Origin: Bacteroidota bacterium
GTDB taxonomy: Bacteria; Bacteroidota; Rhodothermia; Rhodothermales; JANQRZ01
NCBI GenBank assembly: GCA_038746285.1
Contig: JBCDKT010000040.1
Coordinates: 1-35,323 of the forward strand
Direction of reading: 5' to 3'
Length of the DNA: 35,323 bases
In this document: piece by piece, positions 5,106-31,774 of the stretch
Layout: each line of letters begins with the position of its first letter
How positions within the stretch are numbered: the first letter of the stretch is position 1
Notes under the pieces: model-generated
The model's database searches: none
What the model was told of the DNA's origin: nothing
Seen by the model: the letters and a program-made list of their open reading frames with translations, nothing else
Position numbers and translations under genes: made by a program

Positions 5106-6092
5106 ATGGTCTTCGCGCACCCCCTCTTCCTGCTCCTGCTCCTCGCCGTGCCCGCGCTGGCATGGTGGGAGTGGCGGCGTGCGCGGCGGCGTCCGGCCAG
5201 CCTGTCCTTCTCCGACACGTCCGCCGCCGAGACCGTTGCGCCGACCGTGTGGGTGCGGCTGCGCGGCCTCCCGGCGGTCCTCCGGCTCGGCGCGCTCACG
5301 CTCGGCATCCTCGCCCTCGCCCGGCCGCAGATCCGCGACACGGTCGTCGAGCGCAGCGCCGAGGGCATCGACATCATCATGGTGCTCGACCTCTCGACCT
5401 CGATGAAGGCCGAGGACTTCCGGCCCAACCGGTTCGAGGCGGCGAAGGACGTGGCCGCGCGGTTCGTCGACGGGCGCACGTCCGACCGGATCGGGCTGAT
5501 CGTCTTCGCGGCCCAGGCCTACACCCAGGCCCCGCTCACGCTCGACTACGACTTCCTCAAGGAGATGCTGCGGAGCGTGCAGATGGGACTGATCGAGGAC
5601 GGCACCGCGATTGGCACCGCGCTCGCCACGGCGACGGCGCGGCTGCGCGACTCCGAGGCCGAGAGCAAGGTCATCATCCTGCTCACCGACGGCCAGAACA
5701 ACCGCGGCGAGGTCGACCCCGCAACCGCCGCCGACGTGGCCGAGGCCATCGGGGTCAAGGTCTACGCCATCGGGGTCGGCTCCGAGGGGCGCGACGCCTT
5801 CGGCCGGCGCCTCCCGGACCGGATGCGCCAGCTCCTCCCGCAGTCGGCCCAGATCGACGAGGCGATGCTGACGACGGTCGCCGAGAAGACCGGCGGGCGC
5901 TACTTCCGCGCCACCGACCGCGAAGCCCTCGCCGCGATCTACGACGAAATATCGGAGCTTGAGACGACCGAGGTCCAGGAGACGAGCTACCTCGACGTGG
6001 ACGAGCGCTACGCCCTCTTCCTCTGGCCCGCCTTCGGCCTGCTCCTCCTCGAAGTCCTGCTCTCCACCACCCGACTCCGCCGCGTGCCATGA
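5106..6092 (+). CDS. batA: BatA, VWA-domain inner-membrane protein
   Basis: This 328-residue protein has the typical BatA start (MVFAHPLFLLLLLAVPAL), a second membrane segment at ~58-72, a von Willebrand factor A domain from ~88 with the MIDAS motif DLSTS (95-99), a later LLTDGQN strand, and a C-terminal transmembrane helix (~302-322). The VWA domain should face the periplasm. BatA and BatB are the paired VWA proteins of the Bacteroides aerotolerance cluster, thought to form a metal-dependent complex with TPR partners BatC and BatE. The start is unambiguous. The gene is preceded by the 5011-5082 repeat and followed by a 100-base spacer with a strong inverted repeat before batB. Confidence 0.95.
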   Translation: MVFAHPLFLLLLLAVPALAWWEWRRARRRPASLSFSDTSAAETVAPTVWVRLRGLPAVLRLGALTLGILALARPQIRDTVVERSAEGIDIIMVLDLSTSMKAEDFRPNRFEAAKDVAARFVDGRTSDRIGLIVFAAQAYTQAPLTLDYDFLKEMLRSVQMGLIEDGTAIGTALATATARLRDSEAESKVIILLTDGQNNRGEVDPATAADVAEAIGVKVYAIGVGSEGRDAFGRRLPDRMRQLLPQSAQIDEAMLTTVAEKTGGRYFRATDREALAAIYDEISELETTEVQETSYLDVDERYALFLWPAFGLLLLEVLLSTTRLRRVP

Positions 6093-6103
6093 CGACAAGA
6101 TTG

Positions 6104-6186
6104 AAAGAGCGGAGGAATGGAAGAGCGAAAGATCGTGCACCTCGCCGCGTAACCATTCTCCCGCTCCTCCGTGCTTCCGCTCTTCC
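6104..6186 (+). repeat. Purine/pyrimidine inverted repeat between batA and batB
   Basis: A purine-rich arm at 6104-6136 is complementary to a pyrimidine-rich arm at 6154-6186 at about 24 of 33 positions. This includes perfect blocks such as GGAAGAGCG (6119-6127) with CGCTCTTCC (6178-6186). The second arm ends six bases before the batB ATG. In mRNA it could fold into a long hairpin close to the start codon and affect batB translation or processing. Confidence 0.65.
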
Positions 6187-6192
6187 CCGCCT

Positions 6193-7257
6193 ATGACCTG
6201 GTCGCATCCTGCTTGGCTGCTTGCCCTCACCGCCGTGCCTCTCGCGGCGGCGCTCTTCGCGTGGGCAGCGGCGCGGCGGCGCGAGGCGCTCCGGCGGTTT
6301 GCGAGCCGGGATGCGTACGCGGATTCGGTGGCGCGGCAGCGGCGGTGGCAGGCGGCGCTCGTCGTGGTGGCGCTGCTCGCCCTCGGGGTGGCGCTCGCCG
6401 GGCCGCGCTACGGGACCCAGCTCCGCGAGGTCCAGCAGGAAGGCCTCGACGTGGTAATCGCGCTCGACATATCGGAGTCGATGCGCGCTGAGGACGTGGC
6501 TCCGAGCCGGCTCGCCAAGGCGAAGTACGAGATCGACCGGCTCCTCGACGACCTCGCCGGGAGCCGGGTCGGGCTCGTGGTGTTCGCGGGCGAGGCGTTT
6601 CTCCAGTGCCCGCTGACGAGCGACTTCGGGGCCGTCCGCCTCTTCCTCGACGCCGCCGAACCGTCGCTCATCCCGACCCAGGGCACCAACTTCAACCAGG
6701 CGCTCCGCGTCGCCAGTCAGGCCTTTGACGGGGCCGACGACCGGCTCGAAGGAAGCGAGGCGCGCGCCCGGGCGCTCCTCGTGATCTCCGACGGCGAGAA
6801 CCACGAGGGCGGCTTCCGGCCCACGCTCGCCCAGATCGGCGAGGACGGGGTGGCCGTCTTCGCGGCGGGCGTCGGGAGCGCAGAGGGCGGGCCGATTCCC
6901 GTGCTCCGCAACAACCGGCTCGCCGGTTACAAGACCGACCGCAGCGGCCGGACCGTCCAGAGCCAACTCAACGAGGCAGCGCTGCGCGACCTCGTGGCCG
7001 GCGGGGCCTACTACCGGATCGACCGCAGCGCGAGCACGCTGCCGGAAATAACCGCCGACCTCGCTCGTCTCGACCGAGGCCCCGTCGCCAGCGAAGCCTT
7101 CGAGACGTTCGCCGAGCAGTACCAGTGGCCGCTCGCCTTCGCCCTCCTGCTCCTCGCCGCCGAGCGCCTCGTGGCCGTCAGGCGGAGGACAGAGGACAGT
7201 GAGACGGTGGACGGTGAGACGGTGGACGGTTGGCGCGGAGCACAGGGGTCTCGTTAA
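6193..7257 (+). CDS. batB: BatB, VWA-domain inner-membrane protein
   Basis: This 354-residue protein has hydrophobic segments at ~7-26 and ~53-70, a VWA domain from ~85 with MIDAS motif DISES (92-96), a later VISDGENHEGG segment, and a C-terminal transmembrane helix (WPLAFALLLLAAERLVAV). It is the partner of BatA. The ATG at 6193 gives the normal BatB N-terminus; longer in-frame readings run back through batA sequence in another frame. The last ~22 residues are hydrophilic and partly encoded by two copies of a 15-bp direct repeat (7199-7228), suggesting the original stop was lost and the frame now reads through spacer DNA. Confidence 0.94.
   Translation: MTWSHPAWLLALTAVPLAAALFAWAAARRREALRRFASRDAYADSVARQRRWQAALVVVALLALGVALAGPRYGTQLREVQQEGLDVVIALDISESMRAEDVAPSRLAKAKYEIDRLLDDLAGSRVGLVVFAGEAFLQCPLTSDFGAVRLFLDAAEPSLIPTQGTNFNQALRVASQAFDGADDRLEGSEARARALLVISDGENHEGGFRPTLAQIGEDGVAVFAAGVGSAEGGPIPVLRNNRLAGYKTDRSGRTVQSQLNEAALRDLVAGGAYYRIDRSASTLPEITADLARLDRGPVASEAFETFAEQYQWPLAFALLLLAAERLVAVRRRTEDSETVDGETVDGWRGAQGSR
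7199..7228 (+). repeat. Two tandem copies of a 15-bp unit at the batB 3' end
   Basis: GTGAGACGGTGGACG occurs twice exactly (7199-7213, 7214-7228). It encodes ETVDG twice in the BatB tail. It acts as the purine-rich half of the batB/TPR-gene boundary module whose pyrimidine half is the array at 7276-7356. Confidence 0.9.
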
Positions 7258-16299: not shown

Positions 16300-16962
16300 A
16301 TGCACATCACTTCCGAATCGGTCGAAGCCCTCGTCGAGCAGTTCTCGAAGCTGCCGACGGTCGGGCGCAAGACGGCGCAGCGCCTCGCGGCCTACGTGCT
16401 CAAGATGCCGCGCGAGGAGGTCGTCGAGATCGCCCGCGCGCTCGTGGCCGTCAAGGACCGCGTCAAGCAGTGCTCGGTCTGCTTCAACGTCACCGACACC
16501 GACCCCTGCCCGATCTGCACGTCGGTCAAGCGGACGCGCTCGGTCGTCTGCGTGGTCGAGGAGCCGAACGACGTCCTCGCGCTGGAGCGGACGAACGAGT
16601 TTCGGGGCCTCTACCACGTCCTCGGCGGGGTGATCTCGCCGCTCGACGGGATCGGGCCGGAGGACCTCAAGGTGCGCGAACTCGTCGCCCGCATCGCTGC
16701 GCCGAAAGAGTCCCAGCCGGAGCCCGCCGAGGGCGTCGCCGAAGACGCGGCGGCCTACGAGCACGAGCCGGTGCAGGAAGTCATCCTCGCGATGAACCCG
16801 AACGTCGAGGGCGACACGACGGCGTACTACATCTCGCAGCTTCTGGAGCCGCTCGGCGTCCGCGTCACCCGCATCGCCCGCGGCCTCCCCATCGGCGGCG
16901 ACCTCGAATACGCCGACGAGGCCACGCTCACCCGCGCCCTCGAAGGACGCTCGCAGGTGTGA
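16300..16962 (+). CDS. recR: Recombination mediator protein RecR
   Basis: This 220-residue protein has a helix-hairpin-helix region ([13 protein letters not shown], ~18-30), a four-cysteine zinc site (Cys58, 61, 70, 73), and a Toprim domain ([17 protein letters not shown], 82-98; [19 protein letters not shown]). It acts with RecF/RecO to load RecA at gaps. It is about 20 residues longer than usual: residues ~135-158 form an acidic Pro/Glu/Ala insertion before the conserved [12 protein letters not shown] strand. The AT-rich island begins straight after the stop. Confidence 0.97.
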
Positions 16963-17025
16963 GTGCCGAACCTTTTTCCTTCTGTGGTGTTCAGAAACAA
17001 GGAAAAACTAAAAAGCTACTGCGCC

Positions 17026-17550
17026 ATGGACGAGGAAAAAAACATTCCGACAGAACTTAAAAAACAAGAAATTAGAGACGATATCAGAGCAGATATACTC
17101 AAGCATTCGGTTGATATTCTATGGAGAGAGTGGGAATATCAACTAGAGAGGAGCAAAGAGTTCACGGTGCTACTTACATCCATCGCTGCCGGGATCACCG
17201 TAATCGCTGTTACTAATCCCGAGCTGAGTAGCACCTCTATTATATTTGGACTCATTGGAACATCAGTCGCTCTAGCGATATCCCTCTTTTGGCTACGCCT
17301 TAATCATCGATGGGCTTCAGTAATTCAGCAAGATACTTTTTTCCTAAACGAGCAATTTTCGGATGACCCGATTGCGAGCAAACATGTATATCTCTCCAAC
17401 GATTGGAAAAGTCATCGAAGCTTAAATATGAAAGGATCATTCTGGTGGCTCCGAGGCACCATGGGATTCCCAATACTTTATCTATTATATTTCGCCTCTA
17501 TCGCAATATACTTTACCATCATGCTAATCGAAATAGCGAAGGGAACATGA
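17026..17550 (+). CDS. Unknown protein with three transmembrane helices
   Basis: I do not recognise this 174-residue protein. It has a charged, helical N-terminus (~1-43: ELKKQEIRDDIRADILKHSV) and a helical hairpin of two membrane segments (~48-64, VLLTSIAAGITVIAVT, and ~72-92, IIFGLIGTSVALAISLFWL). A soluble stretch of ~45 residues with several aromatic residues and a third membrane segment near the C-terminus (GFPILYLLYFASIAIYFTIML) follow. This loosely resembles small membrane proteins of defence or signalling cassettes (e.g. SLATT-type), but no homology can be claimed. ATG 17026 was chosen over a GTG at 16963 because the upstream codons look non-coding. The stop overlaps the next start (ATGA). 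Confidence 0.75.
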   Translation: MDEEKNIPTELKKQEIRDDIRADILKHSVDILWREWEYQLERSKEFTVLLTSIAAGITVIAVTNPELSSTSIIFGLIGTSVALAISLFWLRLNHRWASVIQQDTFFLNEQFSDDPIASKHVYLSNDWKSHRSLNMKGSFWWLRGTMGFPILYLLYFASIAIYFTIMLIEIAKGT

Positions 17551-18224
17551 ATCAAACTAGGATCGATTTCTATGATGAATGGGCTAGGTCGGGAAAATTT
17601 GACGACCAGCAAAAAAATTTAGAGTTGTACGAAATGCCAAACGTGTTAGAAATGATATATGGCCTAGATCCCGAACATTCTATTGATTTATGTTGTGGGA
17701 CAGGAAGGTATATTCCAGCCCTACTCGAGCAATCGCGTACGGTAGTAGGAGTGGACGCTAGCAAAGAGATGCTCAAAGCAGCAAAGACTAAGTATAGAGA
17801 CTTCATAGGTGATAGACTATGTTTTAAGAAGATAGACATCGAGTCCCAAAGTCTTCCCAGTGGTAGATACGACCTAGCACTCTGCACCATGGCCATTGGC
17901 GGGTTTGAGGACAAACAAGAAGCTATTAGAAACGTTGGCTCCTCAATGAAGACAGGAGGGTATCTGGTCATATCGACATACCATCCGATCCAAGCCCTAA
18001 GACGTAAAGTGCTTACCTCTAGGCATAGTGATCACATCAGCCAGATTCCCTTCACGAAACCGTGGATGGTTTCAGAATACTTCAGAGCATTGACAGATAA
18101 TCGACTTCAAGTCATCGATATGAGAGAGCCTGTATTTACTGTTGAGACAGCAGCAATGTCTGGTACCCATACTGACGAGGTGGGCTGGCCTCATGTTCTC
18201 ATTCTCAAGTGTATGAAGGTATAA
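17547..18224 (+). CDS. Class I SAM-dependent methyltransferase
   Basis: This 225-residue protein has motif I IDLCCGTGRY (46-55), motif II acidic residue in VVGVDAS (Asp70), a motif III-like FKKIDIESQSLPSGRYD segment, and motif IV/post regions YDLALCTMAIGGFED and MKTGGYLVISTYHP. This is the small-molecule/UbiE-like class I fold. There is no DPPY motif as in DNA N6-adenine or N4-cytosine methylases, so the substrate is unknown. The ATG overlaps the stop of the membrane-protein gene by four bases and a third gene starts three bases after it, so the three are one transcript. Confidence 0.88.
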   Translation: MNQTRIDFYDEWARSGKFDDQQKNLELYEMPNVLEMIYGLDPEHSIDLCCGTGRYIPALLEQSRTVVGVDASKEMLKAAKTKYRDFIGDRLCFKKIDIESQSLPSGRYDLALCTMAIGGFEDKQEAIRNVGSSMKTGGYLVISTYHPIQALRRKVLTSRHSDHISQIPFTKPWMVSEYFRALTDNRLQVIDMREPVFTVETAAMSGTHTDEVGWPHVLILKCMKV

Positions 18225-18227
18225 TAG

Positions 18228-18677
18228 ATGAGTAAGAATCCTAATATTCTATTAGTGGTGCCAGAAACTGTGGACATTGCGTGCGCCAATCACATGGAAT
18301 CCGTAATTTCATTGCTAGAGTCGGAAAATCTGGACTTCCTTTTCACTGGTATCGCTGATTACAACCATACCTCACCATCTTACTCGGATAAATATTTTCA
18401 TATGAAAGACATACCCTTATACTCAGACAAAGTCAATGTCTTGCCACTCTGTGCCACAATGGATACTGTCCGATGCGTGTCGTACATAGCACGTAAGATG
18501 GATAATATCCCATTGAGCCTGTTCTTCTACCCATCCGACAAATGGGCTGGTTTAGTCTCTTGGCTTCGGTTCCAAATGGAAGCTGAAGAAGATCTTGATT
18601 GGCATCAATACGTTAATCTTAGCCTACTCGATCATGTAGACGAAATTATCAAACTACTGCATGGTGCGCCTCAGTAG
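18228..18677 (+). CDS. Unknown 149-residue protein of the AT-rich cassette
   Basis: I do not recognise this protein. It starts with a hydrophobic strand (PNILLVVPETVDIAC), is predicted soluble, and has a mixed alpha/beta look. There is a Tyr/Ser-rich loop (SPSYSDKYFHMKDIPLYSDK, ~49-68), a Cys-containing middle section, and an amphipathic C-terminal helix (LLDHVDEIIKLLHG). The N-terminal strand-loop could be the start of a Rossmann-like fold, but that is a guess. It follows the methyltransferase by three bases, has the same low-GC codon use, and is the last cassette gene. Confidence 0.75.
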   Translation: MSKNPNILLVVPETVDIACANHMESVISLLESENLDFLFTGIADYNHTSPSYSDKYFHMKDIPLYSDKVNVLPLCATMDTVRCVSYIARKMDNIPLSLFFYPSDKWAGLVSWLRFQMEAEEDLDWHQYVNLSLLDHVDEIIKLLHGAPQ

Positions 18678-18805
18678 GCTGCGACCAAGCACACTTCCAA
18701 TGCAATGGAACTAGATTCTGAATGGTGAAATGGTCTGCCACCTTGGCTCCGCAACTATCGAGTGAACCTTGGCGGATTAAAGCTATTGAAAAGAATCTGT
18801 TTGCC

Positions 18806-19030
18806 ATGCGCGAGCACGACACCGTAGTGCTGACCCGTGATCTTCCCGGCAGCAGCCTTCGCCGGGGCGACGTGGGAGCTATCGTCCACATCTACGCTGA
18901 CGGAAAAACGATAGAGGTCGAGTTCGTGACCGGGTCGGGAGCGACGGTGGCGGTGGAGACGCTCTCGGCGAGCGACGTGCGACCGCTCGGGCAGGAGGAG
19001 ATTTTGCACGCCCGCGAGCTTGCCGCCTAG
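18806..19030 (+). CDS. DUF4926 domain protein
   Basis: This 74-residue protein matches the DUF4926 pattern: HDTVVLTRDLPGSSLRRGDVGAIVHIYADGKTIEVEFV, then a DVRPL end. The fold is a small beta barrel. DUF4926 genes are often found next to a DUF6883 gene, and such pairs are suspected small accessory or toxin-antitoxin-like modules; no partner is visible here. ATG 18806 was chosen because the domain begins at once. GC content returns to the local high value within the gene. The permease GTG start follows three bases after the stop. Confidence 0.85.
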   Translation: MREHDTVVLTRDLPGSSLRRGDVGAIVHIYADGKTIEVEFVTGSGATVAVETLSASDVRPLGQEEILHARELAA

Positions 19031-19033
19031 CCT

Positions 19034-20680
19034 GTGCTGACGCGCCGCGCTGCTCTCTTGCTCGCCGTGCCGGTGGCGCTCGTGCTCGTCGGGTACGTGC
19101 TGTGGCCGGCGTTGCAGACGTTTGGCCTCGGGATCGGGCACCTCGGCGAGTTCTTCGGTGGGTGGCGCTCGGCGAACGTGCGGGCGCTCGTCAACTCGGT
19201 CGGGATTTCGCTGGCGACGGTGGCGGGGGCGAGTGTGGTCGGGACCGGCCTCGCGTGGGGGCTGTGGCGCTACGGGCTGTACCCAACGGCACTCCGGCGG
19301 GCACTGCAGGCGGCGGCGGCGCTGCCACTCGCACTCCCGCCGCTCGTCGGCGTGCTGGCGTTTCTGTTTCTCTACGGTGAGACGGGCATCCTCCCGCGCG
19401 CGCTCCGCGACGGGCTGGGCCTCGCCGAGGTGCCATTCGGCTTCGACGGGCTGAGCGCGGTGTGGCTCGTCCACGTCTACGCCTTCTACGTCTACTTCTT
19501 CCTCTTCGCCACCGCCGCGCTACGCGACCTCGACGCGAGCCTGCTCGAGGCCTCGGCCGACCTCGGGGCGAGCGGGTGGCGGGCATTTCGGCGCGTCGTC
19601 CTCCCGCTCCTCCGGCCCGCGCTCGTCGGGGCGTCGCTGCTGGTGTTCATGCTCTCGATGGCGAGCTTCACGGCTCCCCTCCTCTTCGCCGGGACCGAGC
19701 CGTTTCTGACGGTGCAGATCTACAACCTCAAGCTCAACGGCGACCTCGCCCTCTCCGCCGCCGTCTCAACCGTTCTGACGGCGATCTGCCTCGCGTTCCT
19801 GTTTCTCCTTGAAGCGAAGCCGGGCCGCAACCTTCTCGGCGCGTCGAAGGGCACGGCGCGGCCGGTGCAGCCCATCGGCGGGCCGGCGGCGTGGGTGGCC
19901 GGCGTCGGCGTTGGGGTCGTCCTGCTGTTCGTCGTTCTTCCAATCCTGACCGTCGGGCTGATCTCATTTGCCGACGCGAGCAGTTGGACCGTCGAGATTC
20001 TGCCGCAGCGGTGGACGCTCGCCAACTACGCCTCGCTCTTCGCCGACCCACAGTTCTTCGACCCCATTGCCAACAGCCTCCAGATGGCGACGCTCGCGAC
20101 GGTCCTAAACGTCGTCTTCGGGGTTGCGGTGGCGGTCGTGATCGCGCAGCGGACCGTGCCCGGGCGCTGGCTGATCCGCACACTCGCCGTCCTGCCGTTT
20201 GCGATCCCGGGCACCGTCATCGCGCTCAACCTCATCGTGACCTTCTCGCAGCCGTCGCCACTCTCGGCCGGGCAGGTCCTCGTCGGGAGTTTCTGGATCC
20301 TTCCGCTGGCCTACTTCATCCGCCACATCCCGCTCGTCGTCCGCGCGACGACCGCCGCACTCGAAGGTTTCGACGAGCGCCTGACCGAGGCCTCGGCCGA
20401 CCTCGGGGCCTCGACGTGGACGACGTTCCGGTGCGTGGTGTGGCCGGCGATCCTGCCCGGCGTGGCGGCGGGAACGCTGCTCACGTTCGTCGCATCGCTC
20501 GGCGAGTTCGTCTCGTCGATCATGCTCTACGTCTTCGGTAACCGGCCGATCTCGGTCGAGATTCTGGCCCAGCTCCGGCTCTACGAGTTCGGCGCGGCAG
20601 CGGCCTACAGCGTGCTGCTGATGGTGCTCGTCGGACTCTCGACGCTGGTGCTCCGCTTCGCGGGCACGCGGCCGGGGTAA
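19034..20680 (+). CDS. Fused ABC transporter permease (FbpB/ThiP type)
   Basis: This 548-residue inner-membrane protein is made of two homologous halves, each with about six helices and an EAA loop: SADLGASGWRAFRRVVLPLLRP in half one and SADLGASTWTTFRCVVWPAILP in half two. This two-in-one layout is typical of iron(III) (FbpB) and thiamine (ThiP) importers. No ATPase or substrate-binding-protein gene is adjacent, so the substrate cannot be read from context. It starts with GTG three bases after the DUF4926 stop. The halves are similar enough at the EAA loops to show their duplication origin. Confidence 0.92.
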   Translation: MLTRRAALLLAVPVALVLVGYVLWPALQTFGLGIGHLGEFFGGWRSANVRALVNSVGISLATVAGASVVGTGLAWGLWRYGLYPTALRRALQAAAALPLALPPLVGVLAFLFLYGETGILPRALRDGLGLAEVPFGFDGLSAVWLVHVYAFYVYFFLFATAALRDLDASLLEASADLGASGWRAFRRVVLPLLRPALVGASLLVFMLSMASFTAPLLFAGTEPFLTVQIYNLKLNGDLALSAAVSTVLTAICLAFLFLLEAKPGRNLLGASKGTARPVQPIGGPAAWVAGVGVGVVLLFVVLPILTVGLISFADASSWTVEILPQRWTLANYASLFADPQFFDPIANSLQMATLATVLNVVFGVAVAVVIAQRTVPGRWLIRTLAVLPFAIPGTVIALNLIVTFSQPSPLSAGQVLVGSFWILPLAYFIRHIPLVVRATTAALEGFDERLTEASADLGASTWTTFRCVVWPAILPGVAAGTLLTFVASLGEFVSSIMLYVFGNRPISVEILAQLRLYEFGAAAAYSVLLMVLVGLSTLVLRFAGTRPG

Positions 20681-23262: not shown

Positions 23263-23587
23263 GAAGGGCAGAGACGAAAGGGACGATACCGGCGTTACTT
23301 CACCGCCTCGGGCTACGGCCCACGCGGTGCAGGACAGCGAAGCGACAGCAAAGGTAACCGATCCCGGACGGTCGCGGGCACCGTTCTTCCCTTGAAATCA
23401 GGGCGTATCGGCATTACTTTCCGCCCCGGCGCTCCCGGCCCCGCAGGCCGCGCTGCTGCCTCTTCGACTCCCTGCTCACCTACCGAATACGCCTAGACGC
23501 GCCTCCGCTACCTCACGATCCGGGCGACCTCTCGACTGCCGACCGAACGGCTCGGGGTTGCTGCTCCTAGAGAACCCGCGCGTGCGT
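23263..23587. other. Intergenic region between divergent lipoprotein gene and sprA
   Basis: No gene was seen in this 325-base region. Two similar ~20-bp words, one near 23287-23307 (containing CGGCGTTACTTC) and one near 23405-23424 (containing CGGCATTACTTT), lie about 118 bases apart and might be promoter or operator copies. No clear hairpin with a T-run was seen. Confidence 0.5.
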
Positions 23588-26500
23588 ATGTCCCGCTCGA
23601 CCCCCCCGTCGGAGGGCCGTGCCCTGCTGTTGACCCTCGTCGGCAGCGTGGCGCTGGCCGGCGTGTGCCTGCTCGCGGCCTACGACCCCTCCGAGGCGGC
23701 ACCGGGCGCTGGTTCGACTCTGGACCGGACGACCCTGTTGCACCACGCCGTCCTCGCGCTGCCGGCGACCGCGCCCGATCTCCGCAGCCGGCGGTCCCTC
23801 CTCGTCCGGCGCGACACGGACACGACGGGGCTGGGGCCGCTCGACTTCTTGGACGACGTCCTGCTCGCGGACTCCTCCCTGGCGGACTCACTCGTCGAGG
23901 GCGACTCGGTGCGAGCCGACTCGCTGGCGACCCTCGCGGACACGACCGAAGCGCTCCCCGATACCGGCTTCGCGGCCCGCCTCCTCCCGCCGTTTCGCCG
24001 CGACCGGTACAGCGCGTCGCTCGCGCCGCGCCGGCGCCGGGCGCTCGGGGCCGGGCTCGGGACCTACTGGCAGCGACGCGTCGAGCTGGACTCCGTCTCG
24101 TCCGACTACACCATCACCGAGCGGGTCGGCGAGGGGGACGTGCGCGTGCCGGTCCGCCTCGGCCTCGACGCCTACCGCGAGCAGCGGCTCCGCCTCGGGC
24201 TCGAGGACAACTACCGCGACCTCGTCAGCCAGCGGGCGCGCCAGCAGCAGCGGCGCAGTGGCCTCGGGTTCGACTTCGACATTCCGGGCGGGCGCAACAG
24301 CGCCTTCGCCGGCATCTTCGGCACCAACGAGGTCGACCTCCGCGTCAACGGCCAGGCCAACGTCGACGTCGGCTTCGCCTACCGGCAGAACGAGCAGCAG
24401 GAGGCCGCCACCGGCCAGGGCGGCCGCGTCGACCCCGACTTCGGGCAGGAGCTCGGCCTCGGCATCACCGGCACGATCGGCGACAAGCTCCAGATCAACG
24501 TCAACTACGACACCCAGAACGACTTCGACTTCCAGAACCAGGTCAAGCTCACCTACACCGGCTACGAAGACGAGATCCTCCAGCGCGTCGAGGCGGGCAA
24601 CGTCTTCCTCCAGACGCCGAGCGACCTCATCCGGGGCGGGCAGCGCCTCTTCGGCATCCGCACCGACCTCCAGGTGGGCGGCCTCGGCGTGACCGTCGTG
24701 GCGAGCCAGCAGGACGCCGAGAGCGACGAGCTGACGATCGAGGGCGGCAGCCAGACGACGACCTTCACCAAGCGCCCGACCGAGTACGAGGACAACGCCA
24801 ACTTCTACCTCGGCTACTACTTCCACAACCGCTGGGACGCCGCCCACGCCAACCCGCCCAATGTCAGTCTCGGACCCAGCGGTTTCAGCCAGCTCATCGA
24901 TCTCGAAGTCTTTCTCTTCGAGCAGAACAACCTCAGCAACTCGGGCAACGACGACCCGATCGTCCGCGGCATCGCGCTGCTCGACCTCGGTGAACCGGCC
25001 GGCGTGCTTGCTGGCGGGCAAGCTTACCTCGCCGCCGAGGGAGAGACCCCATCGCTCCCCGACTCGACCGCCGACCGCTACTCGCCGGCCGACCTCGACC
25101 TCCTTCGCACGCCGACGAGCCAGAACCCAGACCTTGACGTGGCCGACCTATTTGGGCTCGAAAACGCCGACTTTTTTGACTCCTCGTTCCGCCGGCTGCG
25201 CGACGGGCAGGACTACACATGGGATCCCCTCCTCGGCAGCCTCAGCCTGAAGCGCTCGCTGAGCAACAACGAGGCCGTCGCCGTCGCCTACCGCTACCAG
25301 CGCGACGACGGGACCGTCGTTGAGGTCGGCGACTTCGGCGAGGGCACTGGCGGCGACATCGACGACCCGCGCATCGTGCTGAAGCTGCTGCGTGGTCCGA
25401 ACCCGCGCCCGGACAACGCCTCGTGGGACCTCACGATGCGCAACATCTACCGCGTCGGAGGCTCGGCCTTCAACGCGGCTGACTTCCAGCTTCAGGTACT
25501 CTACGCCCCCCCAGGCGCGACGCCGCAGCGCACGCTGCCCGGCGTCGACGTGGGGCAGCCGCCGCGGACGCTGCTCCAGACGCTCGGGCTGGACCGCGTC
25601 AACCAGGACGGCGCCCGCACTACGGACGACCTCTTCGACTTCCTCCAGGGCTACACCGTCGACTCCGGCAACGGACGCATCATCTTTCCCTACCGCCAGC
25701 CCTTCGGCGAACATCTGGAGCGCGTGCTCCGCGGCCAGTTCCAGGAAGTAGGCCCCGCGGTCCCGGTGGCCTTCCAGGGACTGAGCGCCGACGAGGCCGT
25801 CGAGGAGTTCGTCTTCTCAGAGCTGTACGAGGAGACCCAGGCCGAGGCTGACCGCGTCACGGACAAAAACGTCTACAACATTTCCGGCGAGTTCCGCGGG
25901 TCAGTGCAGGAGATCTACGACCTCGGCTTCTCGCCCGTCGAGAACTCTGTCCAGGTCCGCAGCGGCGGCATCGAGCTGGTCGAGGGCTCGGACTATACCG
26001 TTGACTACATCACCGGCACCGTCACCATCACCAACCCCGCCTTCCTCACGAGTGGGCGCGACGTGTCGATCTCGTTCGAGCGCAACCAGTTCGTTGCGAT
26101 CCAGAAGAAGACCCTCCTCGGCCTGCGCGCCGACTACACCTTTAACGACCGGTTCGGGATCGGGGCGACGTGGATGCGGCTCTCGGAGAAACCGCTGATC
26201 GACAAGTTCCGGCTGGGCGAGGAGCCGATTGCGAACTCCATCTGGGGCTTCGACGCCGCCTACGCCGCTGAGCCCCGCTGGATGACCCGGCTCGTCGACG
26301 CACTCCCGCTCATCCAGACGCGGGCCCCGAGTTCCTTCGAGTTCAAAGGCGAGTTCGCCCAGCTCAACCCCGGCCACCCGGAGACCTTCGCCTTCGAGCA
26401 GTCGCGCGACGACCTCCGGGACCTCGGGCGCGACTTCAAGGAGGACGAGCAGAACGGCTCGATCTCGTACATCGACGACTTCGAGGGAACCGAGAACTCG

Positions 26501-29500
26501 TTTAGCCTGCTCCAGCCGGGGTCGTGGCGCCTCGCGGCCGCACCCGAGGGCATCGAAGAGGCCCCCGGCGCGGGTCCGCTCGGGGCTGAGACCTACCTGA
26601 GCGACCTGCCGGGCCAGGAATCCATCACCTCGCCTTTCCTGCGGACGAGCTGGCGCGGGCGCTTCGCGTGGTACACCGTCCTCGCGGCCACTTATGAGAA
26701 TGACAACCTCGCGCCCCTCGCGGGCAGCCAAGCGACCTCTCGCGTCTTCATCAAGGAGGTGTTCGAGGACCGCGAACTCCAGCCCGGCAGTCCGCCCAAC
26801 CTCCCGACCCTCGACCTCTACCTCGACCCGGCCGAGCGCGGCCCCTACAACTACAACGCCGCGCTCGGGACCACCTTCGCCGACAACCCACAGGACGTGT
26901 GGGGTGGCATGACGCAGCGCCTCCCCGAAGGCTTCACCGACTTCGACGCCCGGAATAACATCGAGTTCGTCGAGTTCATCTTCTCGCCCTTTGGCGGCAG
27001 GAACGGCGAGTCGGACATCGCCTCGACGGCGAAGCTCTACGTCGACCTCGGGCAAACGAGCGAGGACGTCATCCCGAACCGGCAGTACAACAACGAGGAC
27101 GGCCTGCTCTCGGTGACGAACGAGGACGCGTGGGGCCGTCCGTCCGGTGGCCAGCAGGACGGAATCATCAACATCAACGACGAGACGCAGCGTACCGAGG
27201 ACCTCGGCCTCGACGGACTGCCGTCGCAGATCGCAGCCCAGGCTGCGGCCGATAACGGCACGCCGTACAACGTTTCGACTGAAGCCGAAAAGTTCGCCCC
27301 ATTCCTCGACACCCTCGCTCTCACCGCCGGGTCCGGGAGTTCCGCTCTAGCCCTGGCCCAGTTCGACCCCTCGGCCGACGACTACCACTCGTTCCAGGAG
27401 GACGGCTTCTTCAACAACGGCACGTTCTTCCCCGGTGGCGCTACGCTGCAAGAGCGCTTCAGCTTCCTCTTCCCCGGCCTCGAGCTCAACTCGCTCGAGG
27501 CCCAGCGGCAGATCTCGGAGAGCGGAGCCCCCGGCAACTCCCGCTTCCCCGACTCCGAGGACCTCAACCTGAACCTCTCGCTCGACCAGGCCGAGCGCTT
27601 CTTCCGCTACGAGATCCCACTTGACCCAGGGCTTGTAGACCGGCCGTGCATGGAGGGGCAGACCGAGAACTGCAACCCGTTCTACGTCACCACGATCTTC
27701 AACGAGAACCAGAGCGAGAATCCTGCGGGACGCGAGTGGTACCTGATCCGCATTCCCGTCCGCTCCGACCAGAAAGCGGCCGTCGGCGGCATCGAGGACT
27801 TCAGCCTCATCGAGACGATCCGGCTGTGGACTCAGGGGCACGAGGAGGCTGCTACGCTTCGCTTCGCCACGCTCGACCTCGTCGGAAGCCAGTGGCTCAA
27901 GTCCGAGCAGATCGGACCGCAGGAAGGTCCCGACGACGACCTAGAGGACGGCGAAGCCGGACTCCCGAACGAGAACTTCGAGAACATCCCGACGTCCTTC
28001 ATCGCGACGATCAACACGGAGGAGAACCCGGACCAGTACGAGGTCCCCAACGGGGCTGTCCAGTCCTTCTCGCGCGACCCCACGTCGGGCCGTACGATCC
28101 CGCAGCGCGAGCAGGCCCTCGCGCTCCGGGTCGACGACCTCGGCGACGGGCAGGAGCGAGCCATCTTCAAGCCGTACACCAACAGACTCGACCTGACGAA
28201 GTACTCGAACCTGCGGACATTCGTCCACGGCGAGGGCTTCGAGCGCGAGGACTCGGTGCGCGTCTTCCTTCGCCTCGGCTCGAACGAGACCCAGGACTAC
28301 TACGAGATCGAGCAGCCCGTCTATCCCTTCGATACCGATGACCTGGCCGCTATCGGCGAGAACGACGAAGTCCAGCGCGCCGACAGCCTGTGGCAGACCA
28401 ACGTCCGCGTCCAGACAGCGAACGGCACCGAGTTCATCGACCTCAACTCGATCAACGTCGAGTTCGACGCGCTCAACAAGCTGAAGCTGGAGCGCGACCA
28501 GGCCGTGGACGCCAACAACAACCCGGTCTCGCTCGACTCGGTCTACACCGCCCAGTCGATCCCGCTCGACTTCGCGCCGCCGGGAGCCATCATCCGCATC
28601 CGGGGCAACCCCTCGATCAAGGACGTCTCGAACATCGTCCTCGGCGTGCGCAACGGGCGCGACCGCTTCGCCCGGCCGGTCAACGTCGAGCTGTGGTACA
28701 ACGAGCTGCGCGTCTCCGGCTTCGACGAGCAGCCCGGCTGGAGCGCCTACGCCCGGACGACAGTCCGCCTCGCGGACTTCGTCGACCTCAACGCGCGCTA
28801 CGACCAGCAGACGGACGGCTTCGGCGACCTCTCGAGCGGGCTCGGGACGCGGACGTTCGAGGACAGCTGGGGCTACAGCGTGACCACCAACCTCAACGTC
28901 CACAAGTTCATCCCCGAGCGCTACGGCTGGCGCATTCCCGTCAACCTCTCTGTCCAGCGCGACGTCTCGACGCCGCGCTTCTCGCCGAGCCGGGGTGACA
29001 TCACCGTCGCCCAGGAGATCGCCCAGATCGAGGAGAGCAACGCGCTCACGCCGGAGGAGAAGGACCGCGAGATCCGCGAGATCCGGGCTGCAGCCGAAAC
29101 CGTAGGCACCTCGCGCGTGATCCGGGTGCCGATCTCGAAGACGGGGAGCCGCAGCCCGTGGCTCCGCTACACGCTCGACGGCCTCTCGCTGACCTACTCG
29201 AACACGCTTCGCCAGCAGCGGACCCCGGCCCAGCAGTTCAACGACACCGACCAGTGGAACGGCACCGTGGCCTACCGCTTGGCAGTCCCCCGGCCGAAGA
29301 CGGTGCGGCCGTTCTGGTTCCTCGGCGAGCTTCCGGTCGTCGGCGTGCTCGGCGGGCTGCGGCTCAACGTGCTCCCGCAGAGCCTCCGCCTCTCGGCCGA
29401 CGCCAGCCGCTCGGTCAACGCCAACCAGGACCGCCCGCGCCGCGGCTCGTTCAACACCATCACCGACAGCCTCGACCGTGCGGCGCGCATCGCGGTCGAG

Positions 29501-31774
29501 CGCGAGCGCCCCGACTTCATCTACCCGATCCGCGAGCAGCACACCTTCAACCACCGCCGCAACTTCGAGCTGGGCTACAACCCGTTCCAATTCCTCCAAC
29601 TCCAGTACCGCTCCGACGTGCGCCAGAGCCTCAACAGCGCCGGGGCCGACGAGACCTTCGCTACGCTCATCCAGGACTACCGAGGCGGCGACGTGAACAA
29701 CTTCCGCGTCCTCAATCTGAGCCAGGCCGAGGTGCTGGATCAGGAGTTCGGCGGGGCGACCACACCGCCGGACTCAGTCTCGATCTTCCCGGTAACCCGG
29801 CTCGACGTGGTTCCGGCGACCCAGGTTTTCGGCGACCTCCTCACCGGCGAGCGCAGCATCCTGACCGACGACTACAACCAAACCACGAGCGCGACCGTGC
29901 AGTCGCCCATCGAGCGGGTGGAGGCGCTATCGTGGCTCCAGATCCGGCCGCTGACCTACACCGGTACCTTCTCGTGGCGCTTCACTCCGCTCCCCGGCGT
30001 GGACCCGCGCCAGCGCGCCGACACGGTGACCGTTGCCTCCGTGGCCAACCAGACCTCGCTCCAGAGCGGCCTCAGCATTCGGTTCGGCGAGCTGTTCGAG
30101 AAGATCGGCCCGTACCGGCGGCTGCGCGAGAGCCAGGAGGAGGCCCAGCAGAACCGCCAGACCCGGCGGCAGGACTTCGAGCGCGACCTCCAGGCATACC
30201 GCACGGCGCGCGACCGGGTGGAACGCGCCGAGGAGGACCTGCGCGAGGCCGAGGACGCAATCCTGGCTGAAGCCGACTCGGTCGCCCTCGACTCGGCTTC
30301 GGTGGCCGCGGGCGAGGACCGCCTGGCCGCGCTGCGCGAGAGCCTCGCGGACGCGCAGGCGGCGGCCGACACGCTCGCGCGGCCCAGCCCGCCGCTCCCC
30401 ATCCCCAACCCGGTCGACCTGCTGCGGCGCGGGTTCCTCGGCCTCACCGGGCCGCGCGACTTCACGCTCACCTACAACGGCAGCTTCAGCGGAAGCTCCC
30501 AAGGCGTCCGTGACCCCGGCTACAGCTTCCTCGACGGCCTCACCGGCGACGGCCCCGGCATCGGCTACCGGCTCGGCTTCGACCGGCGCATCGGGGCCGG
30601 CGAGCAGGACCGCTTCTTCGGCGACGAGTTCTCCACGATCCAGGTCCAGGACGAGCTCCGGGACGACCACCGGCTTGGGGCGCGCACCTCGCTCGAGTTC
30701 AGCCAGGCGCTCCGCGTGGACCTGACGTGGGACCTCGGCCTCAACACCCAGCGGACGTTCGCCTTCTCGCGCGAGAGCATCGGCACCCCGACCGTCACCG
30801 AGCGCGGCAACGGCAGCGCCACCATCCTCTCGCTCGGCGGCACGTACAACGACTTCTTCGACCTCCACCGCGAGCGCTACAGCGCGGCCATCAACACCGA
30901 CACGATCGCCGGGGTCAACGTGTCCGGCGACCTGCTGACGCAAAACGCCGTCGTAGAGGACTTCCGCTCGGCCTTTGTGACCGGCCTGGGCAGCATCGGG
31001 CGCGGCGGCTTCAACGTGCTGCCGCTACCCAACTGGACGGTCAACTACACCGGCATCGCAAACTTCCCCATCGTCCGCGCCCTGACGCAGTCGGCCACGC
31101 TCCAGCACGGCTACTCGGCGACCTACGACGTGGGCTTCCTCTCGAACCCGCAGGAGGGCACGCTCAACGAGGAGCGCCTCTCGCTCACGAACGCCGACGG
31201 CATCACAAACACCGTGCGCTTCATCTCGGAGACGCCGTTCCTGGAGGCCAACTCGGTCCGCGTCAGCAAGCGGTTCCAGCCGCTCGTGGGCCTCAACCTC
31301 GGGTTCAAGGGCGGCTTCCAGACGGACCTCCGCTGGAGTTCCAGCGAGAGCTATGCCCTCACCCCCGCCTCGGCCGAGGTCAACCAGACGCAGACGCGGG
31401 AGTTCTCGCTCCGGGTGAGCTTCAACAAGACGGGCCTCCGCATCCCGCTCCCGTTCCTGAACCGGCGACGGCTCAACAACAACTTCCGCTTCAGCCTGAT
31501 CGCCTCCCAGGCCAACAACCTCACGCGCCGCTTCGAACTGCGCTCGGACCTGGAGCAAGACATCTCGAACCTGCGTACCCCAACCTTCCGCAACCCGCTG
31601 GGCGAAGTCACGACCCGCCTCTCGCTCGAACCGTCGATCACCTACACGCTTTCGAACCAGGTCCGGGTGACGGCGTTCGTGCGCTACAACCAGTTCGACA
31701 GCGAGGGCAGCCGCAACCCTTCGACCTCGACCCTCGACGGCGGCTTCACCTTCAACGTGTCGTTCTCGAATTAG
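23588..31774 (+). CDS. sprA: SprA/Sov, outer-membrane translocon of type IX secretion
   Basis: This 2,728-residue protein has a signal peptide (hydrophobic ~13-30) and an Asp/Ser-rich leader. SprA hallmarks include GDKLQINVNYDTQNDFDF near residue 298 followed by QVKLTYTGYEDEILQRVEAGN, a second SprA_N-type repeat near 760 (VYNISGEFRGSVQEIYDLG, GSDYTVDYITGTVTI), and YIDDFEGTENSFSL near 961. Long runs of amphipathic beta strands reach the C-terminus (FTFNVSFSN). SprA forms the giant beta-barrel through which T9SS cargo crosses the outer membrane, and it is needed for gliding in Flavobacterium. It is longer than the usual ~2,350-2,500; one contributor is a charged coiled-coil-like stretch at ~2176-2269. 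ATG 23588 gives the signal peptide directly; an upstream TTG (23558) is unlikely. No other T9SS gene is in the window. Confidence 0.96.
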   Translation: MSRSTPPSEGRALLLTLVGSVALAGVCLLAAYDPSEAAPGAGSTLDRTTLLHHAVLALPATAPDLRSRRSLLVRRDTDTTGLGPLDFLDDVLLADSSLADSLVEGDSVRADSLATLADTTEALPDTGFAARLLPPFRRDRYSASLAPRRRRALGAGLGTYWQRRVELDSVSSDYTITERVGEGDVRVPVRLGLDAYREQRLRLGLEDNYRDLVSQRARQQQRRSGLGFDFDIPGGRNSAFAGIFGTNEVDLRVNGQANVDVGFAYRQNEQQEAATGQGGRVDPDFGQELGLGITGTIGDKLQINVNYDTQNDFDFQNQVKLTYTGYEDEILQRVEAGNVFLQTPSDLIRGGQRLFGIRTDLQVGGLGVTVVASQQDAESDELTIEGGSQTTTFTKRPTEYEDNANFYLGYYFHNRWDAAHANPPNVSLGPSGFSQLIDLEVFLFEQNNLSNSGNDDPIVRGIALLDLGEPAGVLAGGQAYLAAEGETPSLPDSTADRYSPADLDLLRTPTSQNPDLDVADLFGLENADFFDSSFRRLRDGQDYTWDPLLGSLSLKRSLSNNEAVAVAYRYQRDDGTVVEVGDFGEGTGGDIDDPRIVLKLLRGPNPRPDNASWDLTMRNIYRVGGSAFNAADFQLQVLYAPPGATPQRTLPGVDVGQPPRTLLQTLGLDRVNQDGARTTDDLFDFLQGYTVDSGNGRIIFPYRQPFGEHLERVLRGQFQEVGPAVPVAFQGLSADEAVEEFVFSELYEETQAEADRVTDKNVYNISGEFRGSVQEIYDLGFSPVENSVQVRSGGIELVEGSDYTVDYITGTVTITNPAFLTSGRDVSISFERNQFVAIQKKTLLGLRADYTFNDRFGIGATWMRLSEKPLIDKFRLGEEPIANSIWGFDAAYAAEPRWMTRLVDALPLIQTRAPSSFEFKGEFAQLNPGHPETFAFEQSRDDLRDLGRDFKEDEQNGSISYIDDFEGTENSFSLLQPGSWRLAAAPEGIEEAPGAGPLGAETYLSDLPGQESITSPFLRTSWRGRFAWYTVLAATYENDNLAPLAGSQATSRVFIKEVFEDRELQPGSPPNLPTLDLYLDPAERGPYNYNAALGTTFADNPQDVWGGMTQRLPEGFTDFDARNNIEFVEFIFSPFGGRNGESDIASTAKLYVDLGQTSEDVIPNRQYNNEDGLLSVTNEDAWGRPSGGQQDGIININDETQRTEDLGLDGLPSQIAAQAAADNGTPYNVSTEAEKFAPFLDTLALTAGSGSSALALAQFDPSADDYHSFQEDGFFNNGTFFPGGATLQERFSFLFPGLELNSLEAQRQISESGAPGNSRFPDSEDLNLNLSLDQAERFFRYEIPLDPGLVDRPCMEGQTENCNPFYVTTIFNENQSENPAGREWYLIRIPVRSDQKAAVGGIEDFSLIETIRLWTQGHEEAATLRFATLDLVGSQWLKSEQIGPQEGPDDDLEDGEAGLPNENFENIPTSFIATINTEENPDQYEVPNGAVQSFSRDPTSGRTIPQREQALALRVDDLGDGQERAIFKPYTNRLDLTKYSNLRTFVHGEGFEREDSVRVFLRLGSNETQDYYEIEQPVYPFDTDDLAAIGENDEVQRADSLWQTNVRVQTANGTEFIDLNSINVEFDALNKLKLERDQAVDANNNPVSLDSVYTAQSIPLDFAPPGAIIRIRGNPSIKDVSNIVLGVRNGRDRFARPVNVELWYNELRVSGFDEQPGWSAYARTTVRLADFVDLNARYDQQTDGFGDLSSGLGTRTFEDSWGYSVTTNLNVHKFIPERYGWRIPVNLSVQRDVSTPRFSPSRGDITVAQEIAQIEESNALTPEEKDREIREIRAAAETVGTSRVIRVPISKTGSRSPWLRYTLDGLSLTYSNTLRQQRTPAQQFNDTDQWNGTVAYRLAVPRPKTVRPFWFLGELPVVGVLGGLRLNVLPQSLRLSADASRSVNANQDRPRRGSFNTITDSLDRAARIAVERERPDFIYPIREQHTFNHRRNFELGYNPFQFLQLQYRSDVRQSLNSAGADETFATLIQDYRGGDVNNFRVLNLSQAEVLDQEFGGATTPPDSVSIFPVTRLDVVPATQVFGDLLTGERSILTDDYNQTTSATVQSPIERVEALSWLQIRPLTYTGTFSWRFTPLPGVDPRQRADTVTVASVANQTSLQSGLSIRFGELFEKIGPYRRLRESQEEAQQNRQTRRQDFERDLQAYRTARDRVERAEEDLREAEDAILAEADSVALDSASVAAGEDRLAALRESLADAQAAADTLARPSPPLPIPNPVDLLRRGFLGLTGPRDFTLTYNGSFSGSSQGVRDPGYSFLDGLTGDGPGIGYRLGFDRRIGAGEQDRFFGDEFSTIQVQDELRDDHRLGARTSLEFSQALRVDLTWDLGLNTQRTFAFSRESIGTPTVTERGNGSATILSLGGTYNDFFDLHRERYSAAINTDTIAGVNVSGDLLTQNAVVEDFRSAFVTGLGSIGRGGFNVLPLPNWTVNYTGIANFPIVRALTQSATLQHGYSATYDVGFLSNPQEGTLNEERLSLTNADGITNTVRFISETPFLEANSVRVSKRFQPLVGLNLGFKGGFQTDLRWSSSESYALTPASAEVNQTQTREFSLRVSFNKTGLRIPLPFLNRRRLNNNFRFSLIASQANNLTRRFELRSDLEQDISNLRTPTFRNPLGEVTTRLSLEPSITYTLSNQVRVTAFVRYNQFDSEGSRNPSTSTLDGGFTFNVSFSN

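Follow-up and report, generated by a model that had tools for sequence, protein, structure and literature searches.

Directly behind recR, the window (the whole analysed stretch of 35,323 nucleotides) carries an AT-rich cassette that is foreign in origin and packed like an operon, in which a small membrane protein, a SAM-dependent methyltransferase and a degenerate LOG-fold protein are encoded one after the other. We propose, with a probability of roughly 40%, that the cassette represents a nucleotide-signal-gated membrane effector module serving conflict or stress responses, i.e. a variant of the TIR-8xMP and Thoeris-like systems. The partnership of the three proteins, the ligand, the gating, the role of the methyltransferase and the defence function are what we infer from gene organisation and from analogy. 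The following features are of importance:

16300-16962, + strand: recR, native, left edge of the slot
16969-18802, no strand assigned: AT-rich foreign segment, directly 3' of the recR stop codon
17026-17550, + strand (possible GTG start at 16963): gene 1, 174-aa 8xMP-like protein with three transmembrane segments, proposed membrane effector
17547-18224, + strand: gene 2, 225-aa class I SAM-dependent methyltransferase, probably of the small-molecule type
18228-18677, + strand: gene 3, 149-aa degenerate type-II LOG-fold (SLOG-class) protein lacking the catalytic residues, proposed nucleotide sensor
18806-19030, + strand: DUF4926 ORF between the cassette and the permease
19034-20680, + strand: ABC permease, native, right edge of the slot

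Likelihood segmentation of the window separated the segment 16969-18802 with a support of 288 nats, compared to 9 nats for the runner-up segment. Its GC content is 0.427 versus 0.699 outside; its left boundary lies no more than 10 bases away from the stop of recR, and its right boundary is located 4 bases 5' of the DUF4926 ORF. The GC3 values of the three ORFs (0.42, 0.44 and 0.45) differ strongly from those of dnaX, ybaB, recR and the next operon (0.90-0.94), and the codons AGA, ATA, CTA and TTA are frequent in the cassette; because of both features we regard it as foreign. All three ORFs are intact and co-directional, genes 1 and 2 share 4 bases (ATGA, 17547-17550) and genes 2 and 3 are separated by 3 bases (18224/18228). 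The chances for stop-free frames of these lengths at the local GC content are 3e-5, 1e-6 and 1e-4 for genes 1, 2 and 3, respectively. Hence, the sharp fall in GC coinciding with three tightly packed genes, as described in the first-pass annotation, is confirmed by segmentation, GC3 and the ORF check, and the same holds true for the overlap and the gap. The extent given there was correct for the start behind recR, whereas its end at 18805 takes in approximately 128 bases of a non-coding foreign tail. Flanking repeats, a tRNA, an integrase and a terminator-like site were looked for at the cassette and were not found.

The cassette is missing in the sister genomes of the same genus (G001) and of the same family (G002), in which homology to the window extends through recR (95% and 89% identity) and resumes at the permease (positions 19028 and 19035). 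G001 harbors an alpha/beta hydrolase at this site, while G002 has a HepT-like/nucleotidyltransferase (HepT/MNT toxin-antitoxin) pair together with a zinc-ribbon membrane protein. In further genomes of the same taxonomic order, recR is directly followed by the permease (L029, L030, L032, L043 and L048) or a LOG-family gene comes after recR (L024, L027 and L031), and the slot of L026 contains a ribbon-helix-helix ORF, its match being just under the cut-off, and a PIN-looking ORF called by eye. The differing cargo among relatives therefore makes the gap between recR and the permease a small variable-cargo site. Horizontal acquisition, as assumed at first pass, is well supported by composition, by the absence from the sister genomes and by the variable slot.

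The slot permits some additional observations. A comparison of the site 16963-19033 with L015, L016, L024, L026, L027 and L031 showed variable cargo or none. The DUF4926 ORF (PF16277, 8.2e-21; GC3 0.80) displays a native-like GC content and is absent at this site in G001 and G002. The LOG genes found in the slot of other genomes were considered as kin of gene 3 and rejected, because they are type-I LOGs with native GC and without recognisable relation to it; for the same reasons their shared position next to recR is regarded as coincidence. Elsewhere in the window, at 23558-31774, a 2738-aa ORF is found, which we take to resemble a large SprA/T9SS-type outer-membrane protein.

Gene 3 went unrecognised in the model libraries, with no Pfam family at E<=10 and, thus, the cut-off of PF03641 not reached. 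In a phmmer search against PDB, the best two matches were the type-II LOGs 5wq3 (0.018) and 5zi9 (0.093), aligned from WAGLVSWLR onwards. With the single-sequence AlphaFold2 model of gene 3, Foldseek found 5wq3 at 6e-4 as the sole match below 1e-3, and VIA aligned 137-141 residues with 5wq3, 1wek and 9us2 at Z 8.7; the top rank in VIA was taken by a different protein, 1kjn (Z 9.7), so the Z values alone cannot single out LOG. It must be mentioned that the models of gene 3 (pLDDT 58, pTM 0.52) and gene 1 (pLDDT 68) are both single-sequence predictions of low confidence. The best matches of gene 3 in 395 Bacteroidota genomes are mostly LOG-II frames of approximately 230-260 aa, plus several chance matches. 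A LOG-II HMM built from these best matches, i.e. a search-selected model, scored gene 3 at 21.4 bits, while the maximum in 2296 block shuffles was 10.2. As an unselected check, the LOG of the host genome itself was aligned, which covers the same stretch of gene 3 and was equalled by 4 of 1894 shuffles. Hence, Foldseek and VIA on the low-confidence model as well as the LOG-II HMM point to the LOG Rossmannoid fold.

The active site is a different matter. Gene 3 lacks both GGGPG(IMEA) and PGGxGTxxE (PGGFGTLDE); in the alignment to LOG-II proteins the GGGPG block is deleted, and PLC-ATMDT stands at the position of the second motif, i.e. the catalytic signature is absent. The catalytic residues Arg155 and Glu178 and the motif PGGxGTxxE have been defined for CgLOGII (PMC5379747). 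In gene 3, Arg155 is aligned to Lys and Glu178 to Thr. Judged from alignment and model, gene 3 has a LOG fold and lost its active site, and it should not cleave nucleotides. Since the motifs and both catalytic residues are lost, ligand binding rather than cleavage is predicted.

For gene 1, hydropathy revealed three transmembrane segments (approximately 46-64, 70-90 and 148-168) and the model three long helices (7-63, 69-110 and 126-171), which agrees with the three segments noted at first pass and shows the hairpin and subsequent C-terminal segment of 8xMP proteins. The match to PF24838 (8xMP) of 14.7 bits (E=0.028) stays below the curated cut-off of 30 bits. One of the few matches of gene 1 in the 395 Bacteroidota genomes, L006, is itself a genuine 8xMP protein (6e-34). 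When gene 1 was compared with a profile made from 15 8xMP proteins of Bacteroidota, it scored 16.1 bits, which was reached by none of the full shuffles and by 4 of 1999 block (local) shuffles; with a 24-member profile the score was 14.4 bits, and 10 of 8998 hydropathy-preserving shuffles were as good. Together, the profile matches suggest that gene 1 is related to 8xMP. Comparison of its model with known structures (Foldseek, VIA) gave generic helical matches only, the profile libraries revealed no resemblance to any transporter family and PADLOC had no match for gene 1 or gene 3. An assignment to SLATT was considered, but no SLATT model matched. A search for literature on 8xMP in PMC found no paper. 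The view of the first-pass annotation that two of the three proteins belong to no recognised family was thus too pessimistic: the profile searches and structure predictions it suggested for the first and third proteins placed gene 3 in the LOG fold and gene 1, weakly, with 8xMP.

Gene 2 is a class I SAM methyltransferase (Methyltransf_25 6.8e-15; BioC-like 3e-15). Its best models are Methyltransf_25/11, BioC/UbiE-like, daptide MTase and CpaM, with a score far under the BioC equivalog cut-off. Signatures of amino-MTases or C5-MTases, as expected for N6/N4 or C5 DNA methyltransferases, are absent from the translation, and PADLOC MTase_II matched at E ~0.03 only; the earlier classification as a non-DNA-type enzyme is therefore supported. 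By model similarity, small molecules are the likeliest substrate class. No relative at E<=1e-20 was found in 394 other Bacteroidota genomes. The PADLOC assignment to MADS mad2 (9e-16) was rejected, since the generic methyltransferase fold alone matches.

The organisation of 8xMP genes elsewhere provides the main point of comparison. Among 198 Bacteroidota genomes, a ThsB_TIR match was located within 1 kb of 4 of the 14 above-cut-off 8xMP genes, one of them fused, whereas 0.005 were expected; a fifth 8xMP gene has a weak nucleoside-deoxyribosyltransferase-like neighbour. On plasmids, a TIR gene lies immediately upstream of 8xMP in 6/9 inspected loci, several overlapping by bases, with 3 exceptions; such pairs occur in Polaromonas, Novosphingobium, Synechococcus, Haladaptatus, Paenarthrobacter and Natronosalvus, i.e. 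in proteobacteria, cyanobacteria, actinobacteria and haloarchaea. PADLOC-DB (2023) knows the TIR half as ThsB-like and has no model for the 8xMP half. The TIR-8xMP pair across bacteria and archaea is by itself a candidate for a defence module, a more general by-product of this analysis that is independent of the cassette. Tight and often overlapping operons of TIR/ThsB-like and 8xMP genes were observed in L101, L102, L104, L105, L107 and L108 and also in L085, L087, L089 and L095. In L095 (G220, 5594-6265), a TIR-like domain is fused directly to an 8xMP segment, and a second ThsB-like TIR gene adjoins.

Relatives of the operon itself were searched for in several collections. Genes 2 and 3 were compared with 84,980 species genomes, all three proteins with IMG/VR, genes 1-3 by tblastn with plasmids and genes 1 and 2 with phages, the cassette by blastn and, in six-frame searches, with 99-395 Bacteroidota genomes; none of these searches found an operon relative. 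The plasmid matches H1-H3 are weak or generic and lie in stretches devoid of annotated features. Because neither the trio nor two of its genes together occur in a second genome of the collections searched, the functional link between the genes rests on their operon packing in one genome.

How could such a module work? The horizontally acquired cassette would be co-transcribed and built around a nucleotide-type signal. Gene 3 would bind a nucleotide-derived ligand, or a target of the infecting element, without cleaving it, and control the permeability or assembly of gene 1, the probably oligomeric membrane effector; gene 2 may modify the ligand or a partner and thereby make, cap or cancel the signal. 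The TIR, DrHyd and SLOG domains, which comprise enzymes and sensors of nucleotides, belong to a single Rossmannoid clade (PMC9503650). Gene 3 together with gene 1 fits the TIR-8xMP pattern, the partner in this case coming from the SLOG branch. SLATT 2TM proteins are published as predicted pore effectors of such nucleotide systems (PMC7159879). A role in defence or conflict appears plausible by analogy, given that 8xMP is a partner of TIR elsewhere and that this site carries a toxin-antitoxin pair in G002. Metabolic cargo of the slot in some relatives (alpha/beta hydrolase, LOG) counts against the module. A signal-maker (TIR, SIR2 or cyclase) was not found within the cassette. Elsewhere in the host genome there are two TIR_2 genes (G000:C52:16879-17163 and G000:C91:2325-2654), which are possible sources of nucleotide signals. 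The more specific version, a three-part immunity module in which the LOG-fold protein, catalytically dead, detects a nucleotide that may be methylated and controls the gating of the 8xMP-type effector while the methyltransferase writes or erases the signal, as a SLOG/methyltransferase counterpart of TIR-8xMP pairs, we consider rather unlikely. If the proposal of an effector module as a whole is right, TIR/SLOG nucleotide signalling would be extended to the 8xMP membrane-effector family, with a methyltransferase as possible signal modifier.

Other explanations need to be weighed against this proposal. LOGs act on modified adenine nucleotides. In some cytokinin operons, LOG is found together with methyltransferases. 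The cassette could be part of an operon that makes or tailors a small molecule or natural product, comprising the methyltransferase, a membrane protein for export or anchoring and a LOG-fold accessory, of which the rest of the cluster was not acquired. The small-molecule enzymes among the best models of gene 2 (BioC, UbiE, daptide MTase, CpaM) agree with it. However, a scaffold-building enzyme is absent, gene 3 is without the LOG catalytic residues and gene 1 is unlike any transporter family, which makes this origin doubtful. Similarly improbable is a toxin-antitoxin or addiction unit, in which a toxic membrane protein is neutralised by the methyltransferase, the LOG-fold protein or both: the short, overlapping, small and foreign operon would suit such a unit, as would the HepT/MNT pair in the slot of G002, but no known TA family matched, no homologous TA operon was found and three genes including an enzymatic methyltransferase would be unusual.

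Finally, the three genes could be passenger DNA that was brought by recombination, has no common function and is possibly decaying, with the degenerate LOG as a remnant. The occurrence of the cassette in one genome only among the collections searched is consistent with this assumption, as are the lacking integrase, tRNA and flanking repeats and the truncation of gene 3 relative to LOG. Nevertheless, all three ORFs are intact, run in the same direction and follow one another with the short overlap and gap, and the frame of gene 3 is uninterrupted despite the lost motifs and keeps a LOG-like order of elements; we therefore see only a small chance for mere passengers.

The proposed effector module can be compared with several known systems. 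With the type-II LOG CgLOGII (PDB 5wq3), gene 3 shares the predicted Rossmannoid fold, the C-terminal half (WaGLV-WlR) and the order of strands and helices, and the equivalents of T175 and D177 appear retained; it differs in its length of 149 aa, the missing N-terminal extension, the lost motifs and the replacement of the catalytic Arg by Lys and of Glu by Thr. Thoeris relies on SLOG for sensing cADPR in one class of ThsA, whereas ThsA proteins of another class are TM-macro membrane effectors (PMC11204291). The likeness to Thoeris, a SLOG sensor of an ADPR-type signal plus a membrane effector as in the TM-macro class, is a works-like analogy. The combination of a ThsB TIR protein with ThsA of the SIR2-SLOG or TM-macro type is absent from the cassette: profile libraries and PADLOC gave no match to ThsB or another TIR protein, to SIR2 or to a macro domain. 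Gene 1 belongs to the same length class as 8xMP, the octameric membrane protein family (PF24838), and has its N-terminal helix, transmembrane hairpin with a terminal W, cytosolic segment and C-terminal transmembrane segment, whereas it remains below the curated cut-off and has a LOG-fold protein and a methyltransferase instead of an adjoining TIR gene. Compared to the TIR-8xMP pairs, the partner in the cassette comes from the SLOG/LOG branch and is located downstream, with the methyltransferase in between; what they have in common is a membrane protein with three transmembrane segments, encoded in an overlapping operon with a protein of the TIR/DrHyd/SLOG clade.
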